A stretch of 64,000 bases of DNA. Source: Neocallimastix lanati (nom. inval.). Lineage: Eukaryota > Neocallimastigomycota > Neocallimastigomycetes > Neocallimastigales > Neocallimastigaceae. Positions 1-64,000 of the stretch are shown here, in pieces. The DNA is taken from positions 1-64,000 of the forward strand of contig JACVTC010000268.1 in the NCBI GenBank assembly GCA_016946835.1. The letters are read 5' to 3'. The notes under the pieces were generated by a model. The model was not told the DNA's origin, searched no databases, and worked only from the letters and a program-made list of their open reading frames with translations. The position numbers and the translations under genes are program-made. Position 1 is the stretch's first letter; every line of letters starts with the position of its first letter.

Positions 1-127
1 TCCATAATTATTTATAAATTTATTTTTAAAAATTTTTTTCATAAATACTACATAAAAACAAAAATTATTTTATAACCATTTGATTTTTAGTAGTACAAGA
101 TTTATTCTTAATTTTAATCATAGGCAA

Positions 128-202
128 GCTCTGTTAGCTCAGTCGGTTAGAGCGTGGTGCTAATAACGCCAATGGTCGCAGGTTCGACCCCTGCACAGAG
201 CA
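128..202 (+). tRNA. tRNA-Ile(AAT), variant with one extra base
   Basis: Cytosolic isoleucine tRNA gene. The acceptor stem GCTCTGT/ACAGAGC is perfect with discriminator A; the anticodon loop CTAATAA is closed by TGGTG/CGCCA and gives AAT, whose A34 would be read as inosine. B box GGTTCGACC. This copy is 75 nt because of an extra T at 173 that widens the variable loop from 5 to 6 nt; all eleven other Ile copies in the window are 74 nt. It lies 15 nt upstream of Lys(CTT) with no T4 between, so the two are probably one transcript. The extra T may be a real variant or a sequencing error close to the start of the sequence. Confidence 0.93.
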
Positions 203-217
203 ACTGAATGTAAAATT

Positions 218-290
218 GCCCGGCTAGCTCAATCGGTAGAGCGTGAGACTCTTAATCTCAAGGTTGTGGGTTCGACCCCCACGTTGGGCG
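218..290 (+). tRNA. tRNA-Lys(CTT)
   Basis: Lysine tRNA reading AAG. Acceptor GCCCGGC/GTTGGGC has two G-U pairs, discriminator G; anticodon loop CTCTTAA in stem TGAGA/TCTCA; T arm GTGGG-TTCGACC-CCCAC. 73 nt, no intron, no encoded CCA. Second gene of the Ile-Lys pair; a T6 at 294-299 is the first terminator after both. An identical gene lies in the opposite orientation at 5875-5947. Confidence 0.97.
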
Positions 291-293
291 ATA

Positions 294-299
294 TTTTTT
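294..299 (+). terminator. Pol III T6 terminator of the Ile-Lys(CTT) pair
   Basis: Six T residues four bases past the Lys(CTT) 3' end. The 15-nt Ile-Lys spacer has no run of four T, so this is the first plausible stop for a transcript started at Ile. Confidence 0.75.
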
Positions 300-341
300 G
301 GTAGTATTCTTTTAATCAAATAGCCTAAGTATATATAAATA

Positions 342-500
342 TTTTAATTAAACTACTTTTTAATGTATATATATATATATATATATATTTTAATTAAACT
401 ACTTTTAATATATATATATAATATATATTTTAATTAAACTACTTTTAATATATATATATAATATATATTTTAATTAAACTACTTTTTAATATATATATAT
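342..500. repeat. Minisatellite, 4 copies, period about 40 bp
   Basis: The core TTTTAATTAAACTACTTTT begins at about 342, 388, 428 and 468; copies are separated by TA-repeat linkers, and the last three are exactly 40 bp apart. It recurs with the same copy number in every unit. Confidence 0.88.
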
Positions 501-1044
501 GTTTTAATGATAAATCAATATTTATATATATAATAAATAATAAGTTATGACTAACCACTAGTTTCATAAATTAAATTTTAAATTTGAACTATATAATATA
601 TATATTTTTATTTTTATAAATTACATATATATATAATATTTTTCTTATTATATATAAATATATATATATTAATGAAATATTAAATAAATAAATTGTATAT
701 TGTTATTAATTGAAAATATTTAATATGATAACTATAATTTTATAACATTTAAAATTTTAATACAATGAATTATTTTTAATTTAAAATTAATTTGTCTAAT
801 GTTTATTTTAATATTAATATTTATTTTGATATTAATATTTATTTTGATATTAAAATTTACTAATATCTTAAAATAGATATTAATTATTATGAATTATCAA
901 ATTTTAAACTTAAACAATATATTTAAATAAATTAATATATTTTCTTATTTAAGAAAATTTAAAAACAAAAAATAATAAATAATATATATATATAAAATTT
1001 TTTTTTATCATAAGAATTTCCAAAAATTATTAAGTAATATAACG

Positions 1045-1080
1045 AAAAAAAAAAAAAAAAAAAAAAAAAAAAAAAAAAAA
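1045..1080. repeat. Poly-A tract, 36 A
   Basis: Homopolymer 35 bp upstream of Lys(TTT). Its length is 36, 34, 35, 35, 34 and 35 in units 1-6. Confidence 0.9.
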
Positions 1081-1114
1081 TTTAAAGCAGGAAAAAACAA
1101 AGCCAGAAAGCGTA

Positions 1115-1187
1115 GCCCTGTTAGCTCAGTTGGTAGAGCGTGCGGCTTTTAACCGCAAGGTCGGGGGTTCGAGCCCCCCATAGGGCG
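1115..1187 (+). tRNA. tRNA-Lys(TTT)
   Basis: Lysine tRNA reading AAA and AAG. Acceptor GCCCTGT/ATAGGGC, discriminator G; anticodon loop CTTTTAA in stem TGCGG/CCGCA; T arm GGGGG-TTCGAGC-CCCCC. 73 nt, no intron. It is followed only 2 nt later by Asn(GTT) on the same strand, so both almost certainly come from one precursor. With two Lys(CTT) genes, lysine has three genes per unit, the highest dosage here. Confidence 0.97.
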
Positions 1188-1189
1188 TA

Positions 1190-1263
1190 GCTCTTATGGC
1201 GCAATTGGCTAGCGCGTTCGGCTGTTAACCGAGAGGTTGGTGGTTCAAGCCCACCTAGGAGCG
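1190..1263 (+). tRNA. tRNA-Asn(GTT)
   Basis: Asparagine tRNA. Acceptor GCTCTTA/TAGGAGC, with one G-U pair, discriminator G; anticodon loop CTGTTAA in stem TTCGG/CCGAG; T arm GGTGG-TTCAAGC-CCACC. 74 nt. It is the downstream half of the Lys(TTT)-Asn pair; the spacer is the dinucleotide TA, too short for a terminator or an independent upstream element. A T6 follows at 1268. Confidence 0.97.
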
Positions 1264-1267
1264 TTTC

Positions 1268-1273
1268 TTTTTT
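1268..1273 (+). terminator. Pol III T6 terminator of the Lys(TTT)-Asn pair
   Basis: TTTCTTTTTT directly follows Asn, with six T at 1268-1273. Confidence 0.75.
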
Positions 1274-1339
1274 ATTATTTTCATAAAATAATATTGTATT
1301 TATTAATTTTTTACAATTTAAAGCACTAAATTAGCATAA

Positions 1340-60933: not shown

Positions 60934-60939
60934 TTATTT

Positions 60940-61021
60940 GACAGCATGTCCGAGTGGTTAAGGAGTGTGACTAGAAATCACATAGGCTCTGCCTGCGCAG
61001 GTTCAAGTCCTGCTGCTGTCG
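60940..61021 (+). tRNA. tRNA-Ser(AGA), unit 6
   Basis: Same as 5469-5550. Confidence 0.97.
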
Positions 61022-61345
61022 TTTTTACTTTATTTTTATTATAAAAATGCAATTATACATTTAATTTTATATATTAAAAAACTCAAAAAAAAAAAAAAAA
61101 AAAAACTCAAAAAAAAAAAAAGTTAATATTAAAATGCAATATGAAATTTTTAAAAATTGTTATTTTTTTTTTTTTTTTTTTTTAATTTTTTTATTTTTTA
61201 TTTTATTTTTATTTTTTTTTTGTTTTGTTTTTATTTATTTATTTATTTTTTTTATTTTCATTTATTTATTTGCATTTTTATTTTCTTTTTTATTTTTATT
61301 TTATTAAAAACAAAAACAAAAAACAAAAATTAAAATATAAAAAAG

Positions 61346-61418
61346 CGCCCAACGTGGGGGTCGAACCCACAACCTTGAGATTAAGAGTCTCACGCTCTAC
61401 CGATTGAGCTAGCCGGGC
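61346..61418 (-). tRNA. tRNA-Lys(CTT) inverted copy, unit 6
   Basis: Same as 5875-5947. Confidence 0.97.
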
Positions 61419-61426
61419 AAATGAAA

Positions 61427-61500
61427 TGCTCTGTGCAGGGGTCGAACCTGCGACCTTGGCGTTATTAGCACCACGCTCTAACCGACTGAGCTAACAGAGC
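61427..61500 (-). tRNA. tRNA-Ile(AAT) inverted copy, unit 6
   Basis: Same as 5956-6029. Confidence 0.97.
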
Positions 61501-61568
61501 TATTTTAGCTTTGTTTCGAAAAATATTTTTGAAATAGGGTATATTATTTAATATATTATATAATATAT

Positions 61569-61776
61569 TATTTATTATTATTTATTATTATTTATTATTA
61601 TTTATTATTATTATTATTATTATTATTATTATTATTATTATTATTATTTATTATTATTTATTATTATTTATTATTATTTATTATTATTTATTATTATTTA
61701 TTATTATTTATTATTATTTATTATTATTTATTATTATTTATTATTATTTATTATTATTTATTATTATTTATTATTA
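61569..61776. repeat. Decamer TTATTATTTA array, unit 6
   Basis: 208 bp, unchanged. Confidence 0.87.
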
Positions 61777-62099
61777 ATACTTAAATTTATAAATTAGAAA
61801 TATAATATAATACACATATATTATTGTATTATGTAGTTCATACTATCAAAAAAATATTTAAATAAAATTATAATTAATTTGAATATTTGTAATATTATAT
61901 TATTCTAATAAATTTAGAAATATTTAATTTTTATTTTATTTTTAGCAAAAAAAAATATATTTTAAGTAATAATATTAAAAAAATTTTTTTTATAATATTT
62001 TGTAAGTATTAAAACGAATATTTTATTTTTAATAAAAAAAATCAAAAGTAAAGAAACTAAAAAAAAAAAAATACTATAAAAGAATTTATTATATATTAA

Positions 62100-62749
62100 A
62101 ATAATAATAATAATAATAATAATAATAATAATAATAATAATAATAATAATAATAATAATAATAATAATAATAATAATAATAATAATAATAATAATAATAA
62201 TAATAATAATAATAATAATAATAATAATAATAATAATAATAATAATAATAATAATAATAATAATAATAATAATAATAATAATAATAATAATAATAATAAT
62301 AATAATAATAATAATAATAATAATAATAATAATAATAATAATAATAATAATAATAATAATAATAATAATAATAATAATAATAATAATAATAATAATAATA
62401 ATAATAATAATAATAATAATAATAATAATAATAATAATAATAATAATAATAATAATAATAATAATAATAATAATAATAATAATAATAATAATAATAATAA
62501 TAATAATAATAATAATAATAATAATAATAATAATAATAATAATAATAATAATAATAATAATAATAATAATAATAATAATAATAATAATAATAATAATAAT
62601 AATAATAATAATAATAATAATAATAATAATAATAATAATAATAATAATAATAATAATAATAATAATAATAATAATAATAATAATAATAATAATAATAATA
62701 ATAATAATAATAATAATAATAATAATAATAATAATAATAATAATAATAA
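62100..62749. repeat. AAT microsatellite, unit 6
   Basis: About 650 bp. Confidence 0.92.
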
Positions 62750-63145
62750 ATAAATAAATAAATAAATATTATTATTAAATTTTATTAATCTATATCAAAG
62801 CAGTTGATAAATAATTATTAATTAATTAATAATTAATACGAAATATTAAAATTAAAATCTAAACTAGTCAAAGACTAGGATTTTATAAATTATATTGTAA
62901 TATTATTATTTAATATTAAATATTGTGATTAATAATTTCATACTAAATTTAAATATAATTTTAAATTATATCAATGTTCTAAAATATTCTAAAATATTCT
63001 AAAATATTCTAAAATATTCTAAAATATTATATATTAATGATGGAAATATTTTACTATGGGTAAAATACTTTAATTACTATCTATTGTCTGAAAGCCTAAA
63101 AGGATCTAAGGAAAATAAAACAGGAATATTAAAATTTTTAAATGC

Positions 63146-63219
63146 GGGCTGTTAGTTCAGTTGGATAGAACGCTTGACTACGGATCAAGAGGTCGCAGGT
63201 TCAAGTCCTGCATAGCTCG
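63146..63219 (+). tRNA. tRNA-Arg(ACG), unit 6
   Basis: Same as 7651-7724. Confidence 0.96.
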
Positions 63220-63223
63220 TTTT

Positions 63224-63297
63224 GATTTCGTGGTGTAGTCGGTTATCACGTCTGTCTAACACACAGACGGTCCCCGGTTCGAATCCGGGCGAAATCA
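63224..63297 (+). tRNA. tRNA-Val(AAC) second copy, unit 6
   Basis: Same as 7729-7802. Confidence 0.97.
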
Positions 63298-63486
63298 TTT
63301 TTTTTACATCATTTTCTAGATATAAATTAAAAATGCTAAAAAAAAAGAAAAAATTTAATATTTTTAATTTAATTATTATAGCAAATATTAATTTTTCGTT
63401 TCTCAAAATATTTTCGTTTCGTAAAAATAAAAGAACTAAAATGTACAATACATATAAATATATTTAGCTTTAGCAATAAAAAGAAC

Positions 63487-63569
63487 TGCCAAGAGTGAGG
63501 TTCGAACTCACGCCTCTTTCGAGACCGCATCTTAAGTGCGGCGCCTTAGACCGACTCGGCCATCTTGGC
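63487..63569 (-). tRNA. tRNA-Leu(TAA), unit 6
   Basis: Same as 7992-8074; last gene in the window. Confidence 0.97.
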
Positions 63570-64000
63570 TAAATATAAGTTTATTTTCTTTTTAATTTAT
63601 TTTTAAGATCAGTTTCTTTTCATTTAATTATTTTTTTAATTTAAAAAATTAATCTATAGCATATTATAATTTTATGGTACTATTAATGGAAAAATAAATT
63701 GATATATGTCTAAACGAACAAATAATAATAAAATTAATTATTAATGTTATAATAAATATAATTATATTAAGTATATGGATAAATTATGTTTAATGATATA
63801 GTATAATATTATTAATAAAGATTATAAGTAAACTTTTAATAATAATAATAATAATAATAATAATAATAATAATAATAATAATAATATATATGTATTTATT
63901 TATTTATGCTTTTTCAGTTTTAAATTTTATAATTAATCTTATAATCTTATAATCTTATAATTTGAAATATCTATAAAATAAATTAATTATAATAAAATGT

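Follow-up and report, generated by a model that had tools for sequence, protein, structure and literature searches.

An 11.1-kb cassette with 22 tRNA genes, repeated in tandem in an anaerobic gut fungus

Transfer RNA (tRNA) genes can be repeated in tandem or transcribed together. In Xenopus laevis, a tandem tDNA unit of roughly 3 kb, organized like ribosomal DNA (rDNA), carries about 8 tRNA genes, and in fission yeast two tRNA genes are contained in one dimeric precursor, outside any large amplified cassette. The stretch of DNA analyzed here, hereafter the window, comprises bases 1–64000 of contig C188 (72,339 bp) and is occupied by head-to-tail copies of an 11.1-kb cassette of 22 tRNA genes, which is larger than the Xenopus unit and holds more genes. 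The closest published systems are the arrays of Entamoeba, the human 1q23.3 locus, and Phytophthora infestans.

E. histolytica has 25 types of array, the units of which hold between 1 and 5 tRNA acceptor types and which together account for more than 10% of the genome; units in other Entamoeba species can be somewhat larger, for example [SPPPCK] and [VMEDR5E] (PMC2652664). An earlier sequence-only reading of the window, which gave one to a few tRNAs per Entamoeba unit, was therefore about right on this point. As in Entamoeba, the units in the window are homogeneous, arranged head-to-tail, and composed of several tRNA genes with AT-rich spacers; the Entamoeba spacers carry short repeats in E. 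histolytica and E. dispar (PMC2652664). Most tRNA genes are arrayed and a few isoacceptors are dispersed in Entamoeba (PMC2652664); among the families sampled here, eight isoacceptors were found on array contigs only, and initiator-Met, Arg-TCT, and Glu-CTC matches lie off the array. With its homogeneous head-to-tail units in many copies, the locus is a tandem tRNA array of the Entamoeba kind. However, the unit is not small, as it holds 19 isoacceptors in about 11.1 kb, and a single cassette carries all 22 genes, in which no 5S gene was found. The same reading regarded one cassette covering most of the amino acids as a distinct arrangement, and this holds, because the Entamoeba units described are far below 22 genes.

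The human 1q23.3 tDNA variable number tandem repeat, with a 7.3-kb unit present in 9–43 copies per allele, is likewise a long unit with several tRNA genes on both strands and microsatellites, and the human-mouse comparison keeps little beyond the tRNA genes (PMC4041453). It differs in having five tRNA genes per unit, a GC-rich composition, and a conserved CTCF site, in a genome where more than 500 tRNA genes are spread throughout (PMC4041453). P. infestans is similar to the present case as a eukaryotic microbe with a large genome and large tandem tRNA arrays, where about two thirds of the tRNA families lie on a single chromosome; it also shares a dimeric Val-AAC/Ser-AGA arrangement, which forms a repeat there (PMC9584435). 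It differs in that its arrays are many and separate, with no more than three tRNA genes in a unit (unit lengths of 513 and 850 nt are examples), and the correlation with codon use is only modest (PMC9584435). Dimeric and trimeric tRNA arrays are termed infrequent in fungi (PMC9584435), and a survey of eukaryotic tRNA genes indicates that large clusters arose many times independently (PMC2888827). No unit near 22 genes is described in the excerpted literature on the Entamoeba, Phytophthora, and human arrays or in that survey, and nothing relevant on such an array in anaerobic fungi or in fungi was found in literature listings of open-licence PMC papers; the excerpts of a paper on anaerobic fungi (PMC10978972) had no bearing on it. 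As far as seen, tandem arrays of this kind are known, and what is new is the gene content, the host group, and the role of a single cassette as the sole source.

Using ARAGORN, 127 tRNA genes were found in the window, and Rfam gave 127 matches at the gathering score, all of which were tRNA. The genes form head-to-tail units of 22 genes in a constant order and strand pattern, with five complete units of 11,065–11,131 bp each (Table 1). Each unit provides 19 isoacceptors for 17 amino acids, where Ile-AAT, Lys-CTT, and Val-AAC are doubled, and ARAGORN found no tRNA gene for Met, Trp, or Cys in the unit. The Tyr(GTA) gene holds an intron and is labelled '???' or Asn by ARAGORN, and its identity was taken from a manual reading of the anticodon. 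No RNA family other than tRNA, including 5S, reached the Rfam gathering score in the window. A protein-coding content of the unit was considered and rejected, as the five open reading frames (ORFs) of at least 60 aa in one whole unit were each of low complexity or overlapped tRNA genes. The sequence-only reading had claimed 22 tRNA genes for 17 amino acids in the same order and strands in each copy, an 11.1-kb unit repeated at least 5.8 times, and nothing but tRNA genes in the unit. The gene set is borne out, and the repeat number is correct for the window, beyond whose end the array continues: the tRNA genes from base 60001 onward keep the array order up to the end of C188 at 72,339, which indicates that the whole contig is array. 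The absence of other genes is upheld at the sensitivity used. A chance origin of this pattern is excluded.

Seven pairs of adjacent same-strand genes in the unit are separated by linkers of 2–15 nt without a run of four T residues (T4), namely Ile-Lys (twice), Lys-Asn, Tyr-Phe, Val-Ser, Arg-Val, and Gly-Thr; these have the gene arrangement of dicistronic tRNA genes, with a short linker and no terminator between the members. At all 15 predicted transcript 3′ ends, T4 or a longer run starts within 6 nt, where the probability for a random position of the unit is 0.158, and none of the seven upstream pair members has T4 within 40 nt. The terminator pattern suggests that RNA polymerase III may read the cassette as 15 short units, consisting of eight single-gene and seven two-gene units.

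The six units in the window are almost identical to each other. Pairwise identity over ungapped columns is 99.97–100%, the four columns with substitutions all lie at or in the AAT microsatellite, and the indels are confined to homopolymers and short repeats, save two single-base ones in and just after the first Ile gene. This Ile gene (128–202), located close to the contig end, has an extra base that is absent from the other 11 of the 12 Ile genes and is likely a consensus error. All remaining genes of each type are identical between the window units, in a comparison where Tyr and Asn were pooled under a single label and ARAGORN assigned different lengths to the two Lys-CTT genes. The number of AAT copies is 207, 207, 201, 228, 220, and 216 in units 1 to 6, respectively.

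The genome containing the window consists of 199,045,447 bases in 762 contigs. It has at least 150 matches to the fungal dockerin domain (CBM_10; 150 of the 150 scored among 1,440 candidates), and 14 control genomes have none. Among the best 120 of 8,000 candidates scored for a dockerin-bearing cellulase, environmental records match at 100% and 93%, and relatives with a name come from Neocallimastix sp. 'constans' (88%, with 69% of the query covered), Anaeromyces robustus (82%), Piromyces finnis (79%), and Neocallimastix lanati (79%). Because of the fungal dockerins and the cellulase relatives in Neocallimastix, Anaeromyces, and Piromyces, we conclude that the host is an anaerobic gut fungus (Neocallimastigomycota).

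The cassette is not confined to C188. In a search with a 2.9-kb piece of the unit, where 40 of 1,851 candidates were scored, matches of 97–100% were found on C362, C353, C188, C304, C251, C94, C734, C350, C266, and C160, and partial matches of about 80–85% on C255, C548, C367, C288, C252, and C160. A Tyr-Phe pair probe gave 40 matches on 15 contigs, all of which are array contigs (40 of 43 candidates scored), and with the isoacceptor pattern searches the unit-bearing contigs total 18. The Tyr-Phe spacings define three spacer classes, A (10.9–11.1 kb), B (10.2 kb, with length variants of 8.5 and 6.2 kb beside it), and C (12.7 kb); spacings outside these classes are 19.1 kb on C362, 17.3 kb on C304, where a retrotransposon is inserted, and 3.4 kb on C255. 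C288, C367, C492, C518, C523, and C548 were placed in class C by matches and gene spacing with their sequence unread, and for C518 the only basis was how its Arg, Val, and Gly genes are spaced. Lys-TTT is present in 19 copies in class A, 9 in class B, and 13 in class C (41 in total), and the genes occurring once per unit have 34–41 copies each, so that the genes are present in many copies; these are counts in the assembly rather than true copy numbers, and some of the contigs may be alleles. On C362, the two Tyr-Phe pairs are separated by about 8 kb more than the normal period, perhaps owing to another insertion. On the 10-kb contig C734 (L019), several tRNA genes have altered lengths or an altered anticodon loop, which may reflect unpolished sequence or a decaying unit.

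Comparison of the classes shows that the genes were kept while the spacers diverged. Between classes C and A, 20 of 23 tRNA comparisons, covering 18 gene positions in two partial units of C252, are identical, and the other three genes differ at 1–2 positions with gaps counted; at the class B locus L020, all 13 tRNA genes fully match class A. Gene order and strand are common to A and C across the 18 readable positions. In contrast, the long spacers of A and C are 42–67% identical in global alignment (n = 12), and several differ by hundreds of bases in length. Among the pair linkers, five keep their length between A and C within 1 nt (2, 2, 2, 10, and 14–15 nt). Selection thus appears to act on the tRNA genes and not on the spacers. 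A loss of Val, Ser, Lys, and Ile in class C was suspected and then dropped, because these positions were unreadable in the unit fetched; it is also countered by two further units of that contig, where a second Val is located between Glu and Arg, and by an Ile gene ahead of Arg on C255. Copies that are alike within an array and diverged between arrays are the pattern of concerted evolution, and unequal crossing-over and gene conversion would be the process that keeps the tandem units uniform.

Genome-wide pattern searches allowing up to three mismatches placed all matches to Asp-GTC (38), Lys-TTT (41), Gly-GCC (34), and Arg-ACG (38) on array contigs, as well as all 68 matches to Val-AAC, of which 67 are exact and one is an altered copy on C734. 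The Glu pattern gave 49 matches: 35 are exact TTC genes on array contigs, and the other 14 have three mismatches and the anticodon CTC and lie on non-array contigs. Together with the pair probe, no off-array copy of eight of the 19 isoacceptors (Asp, Lys-TTT, Gly, Arg-ACG, Val, Glu-TTC, Tyr, and Phe) was found genome-wide. The near-absence of dispersed copies therefore applies to these eight, which is the scope tested, and the counts are lower bounds, as the searches are blind to sequence that is unreadable or absent from the assembled contigs, to genes differing at more than three positions, and to intron-bearing copies. Outside this array are the matches to an initiator-Met anticodon arm (48, with two mismatches each and the genes unread), Glu-CTC (14), and a loose cluster of Arg-TCT on C555. 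The viral contigs gave no match to an exact 29-base pattern spanning the Lys-Asn linker.

The codons served by the array were evaluated using the decoding rules in which I34 reads U, C, and A, G34 reads U and C, U34 reads A, and C34 reads G. The array set reads 93.8% of the codons of EF1A (a nearly complete frame of 439 codons) and 89.1% and 87.9% of those of two cellulases, where high expression of the three genes was assumed. With Met, Trp, and Cys codons excluded, the values are 98.6, 96.5, and 95.1%, compared to 82.9–91.5% in eight retroelement or unidentified ORFs. In the 1,413 codons pooled from EF1A and the cellulases, an arrayed isoacceptor reads the most frequent codon for every one of the 17 amino acids, and the codons that the array set leaves unread, AGA, GGA, GAG, TTG, and AGT, are rarer choices.

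Two contigs show how the array is connected to other DNA. On C94 (288 kb), the array ends near unit position 7945, about 150 nt past Val in the Arg-Val pair, and the same junction is found on C304 with 98.5% identity over a 544-bp alignment including 40 array bases. Beyond the junction, C94 has no tRNA gene up to base 27000 and contains retroelement-like frames, one with an integrase domain. C160 (103 kb) begins with class C genes close to its start and carries class B units, in the same orientation, at its end; the class B unit begins mid-unit after a stretch without a match or tRNA; about 80 kb between the two portions, a stretch left unread, gave no match in the probe and pattern searches. 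An array end on one additional contig was dropped as a candidate, since the sequence there was unreadable onward. On C304, one unit is split about 14 bases upstream of tRNA-Ala by a long terminal repeat (LTR) retrotransposon with 602-bp LTRs that are 99.5% identical; the element occupies positions 919–7070 of this locus (L039, C304:11461–21460) and has reverse transcriptase, RNase H, and integrase domains. It is reminiscent of those targeting tRNA genes, such as Ty3.

Taken as a whole, these results are probably best explained by an array that, like rDNA, provides gene dosage, in this case for the tRNAs of preferred codons. The window would be an internal part of this tandem array on a chromosome of the fungus, and the array would give the preferred-codon tRNAs a high and roughly balanced gene dosage; matches to the remaining families sampled, namely initiator Met, Arg-TCT, and Glu-CTC, lie elsewhere. 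We infer that supplying preferred-codon tRNAs through gene dosage is the function with the best support; that the genes are transcribed and the pairs processed, how the units are homogenized, and that dosage is what selection favors are presumed rather than observed. The rDNA-like dosage system proposed in the first reading is thus favored by the codon matching and the sole-source result, short of proof. A bolder possibility, which we hold only tentatively, is that nearly the whole preferred-codon elongator set is placed under one locus type, where the copy number scales the 19 isoacceptors together as rDNA scales ribosomes, and rare-codon tRNAs and initiator Met are regulated apart. If so, the array size would set the balance of preferred-codon decoding against the rest. 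Arrayed units elsewhere, in the papers cited above, carry only a few genes; a unit of 19 isoacceptors would let the copy number shift the elongator tRNA pool as a set, and comparing the array sizes of strains makes it possible to test the old question of whether selection acts on the dosage of tRNA genes collectively.

Several observations weigh against the dosage explanation. The codon test covers three genes with a poor control, and the commonest codon, GGT (119 of 1,413), is served by Gly-GCC, which is single in each unit; since Ile, Lys-CTT, and Val are doubled but not the isoacceptor for GGT, the dosage is not finely tuned. The 48 initiator-Met matches, none of which lies on array contigs, indicate that this array is unnecessary for a high copy number, and Met, Trp, and Cys are missing from the array. 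The test for outside copies covers eight of the 19 isoacceptors. For Entamoeba, the number of tRNA genes is reported to bear no relation to codon usage (PMC2652664).

The alternative that survives best, which we nevertheless consider unlikely, is neutral or selfish amplification by unequal crossing-over, in which the high copy number brings no benefit and selection keeps just enough intact genes. The 8.5- and 6.2-kb variants of class B beside 10.2 kb are in line with this, and the function of the Entamoeba arrays is termed obscure (PMC2652664). However, the array copies found with the six patterns are all exact, save the altered Val on C734, no other source was found for eight isoacceptors, and the arrayed isoacceptors read the preferred codons. 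Homogenization could explain the likeness within a class, and less easily that between A and C.

An assembly artefact, in which the assembler multiplied a unit of one or a few copies or entered haplotype copies more than once, is very improbable, and we have high confidence that the array is real. The window units are almost without substitutions, several array contigs are short (10–46 kb), some may be alleles, and the small indels in tRNA genes near the C188 ends and on C734 resemble consensus errors, all of which would fit such an origin. Nevertheless, the AAT runs (201–228) and other indels differ between neighboring units, three spacer classes exist, one unit contains a retrotransposon, and C94 and C160 join the array to non-array DNA. 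The sequence-only reading had named repetition created by the assembler as what would overturn it; this is largely answered by the 18 contigs, the three diverged classes, the distinct microsatellite lengths, the copy split by the retrotransposon, and the joins to non-array DNA. Even one unit per class would still be a 22-gene cassette.

A structural role, as a chromatin barrier, nuclear organizer, or chromosome-end structure with tRNA supply secondary, has marginally less in its favor. Barrier activity is discussed for the human 1q23.3 repeat (PMC4041453), and a telomere role was proposed for the Entamoeba arrays (PMC2652664); however, the long spacers are not conserved between the classes, the array runs into other DNA on C94, and both ends of C160 carry array genes, so that these contigs do not establish a terminal position. 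It is scarcely credible that the units also exist as extrachromosomal circles, the source of the tandem contigs, since C94 and C160 join the array to other sequence, even though C188 is array throughout and episomal rDNA circles are mentioned for Entamoeba (PMC2652664).

Table 1. Units in the window, with the tRNA genes and microsatellite of unit 1 (window positions).
Feature	Position	Strand	Remarks
Unit 1	1..11086	+	phase arbitrary, set 127 bp ahead of first Ile gene
Unit 2	11087..22163	+	
Unit 3	22164..33228	+	
Unit 4	33229..44359	+	
Unit 5	44360..55479	+	
Unit 6	55480..64000	+	cut by window end after Leu-TAA
tRNA-Ile(AAT)	128..202	+	pairs with Lys-CTT, as first member; extra base unique to this copy
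tRNA-Lys(CTT)	217..291	+	second member of pair with Ile
tRNA-Lys(TTT)	1115..1187	+	first member of pair; 2-nt linker to Asn
tRNA-Asn(GTT)	1190..1263	+	second member of pair
tRNA-Ala(AGC)	1753..1825	-	
tRNA-His(GTG)	2494..2567	-	
tRNA-Phe(GAA)	2924..2996	-	second member of pair
tRNA-Tyr(GTA), intron	3007..3093	-	first member of pair; 10-nt linker to Phe; anticodon read manually
tRNA-Leu(AAG)	3896..3979	-	
tRNA-Glu(TTC)	4211..4282	-	
tRNA-Val(AAC)	5388..5463	+	first member of pair; 4-nt linker to Ser
tRNA-Ser(AGA)	5468..5551	+	second member of pair
tRNA-Lys(CTT), second copy in unit	5874..5947	-	second member of pair
tRNA-Ile(AAT), second copy in unit	5956..6029	-	first member of pair
(AAT)207 microsatellite	6632..7252	n/a	201-228 copies across six units
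tRNA-Arg(ACG)	7650..7725	+	first member of pair; 2-nt linker to Val
tRNA-Val(AAC), second copy in unit	7728..7803	+	second member of pair
tRNA-Leu(TAA)	7992..8074	-	
tRNA-Gly(GCC)	8802..8872	+	first member of pair; 2-nt linker to Thr
tRNA-Thr(AGT)	8875..8949	+	second member of pair
tRNA-Pro(TGG)	9570..9642	+	
tRNA-Gln(TTG)	9995..10066	+	
tRNA-Asp(GTC)	10273..10344	-	last gene of unit 1; same gene set recurs in units 2-6

Some details were obtained for the families outside the array. The initiator-Met matches fall into several groups, on C24, C555, C610, C746, and nine other contigs. The Rfam tRNA list for the whole genome is not a census, since it covers 63 scored candidates out of 9,278 and lacks the genes of the window itself; no row of this list falls on an array contig. 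Equal-scoring tRNA matches are numerous on C555 and other contigs. In the C555 cluster (170–399 kb), the tRNA was read at two places and is Arg-TCT, and the remaining equal-scoring places are presumably Arg-TCT as well. The locus L041 (C555:330760–331440) contains two Arg-TCT copies about 540 bp apart with similar flanks.

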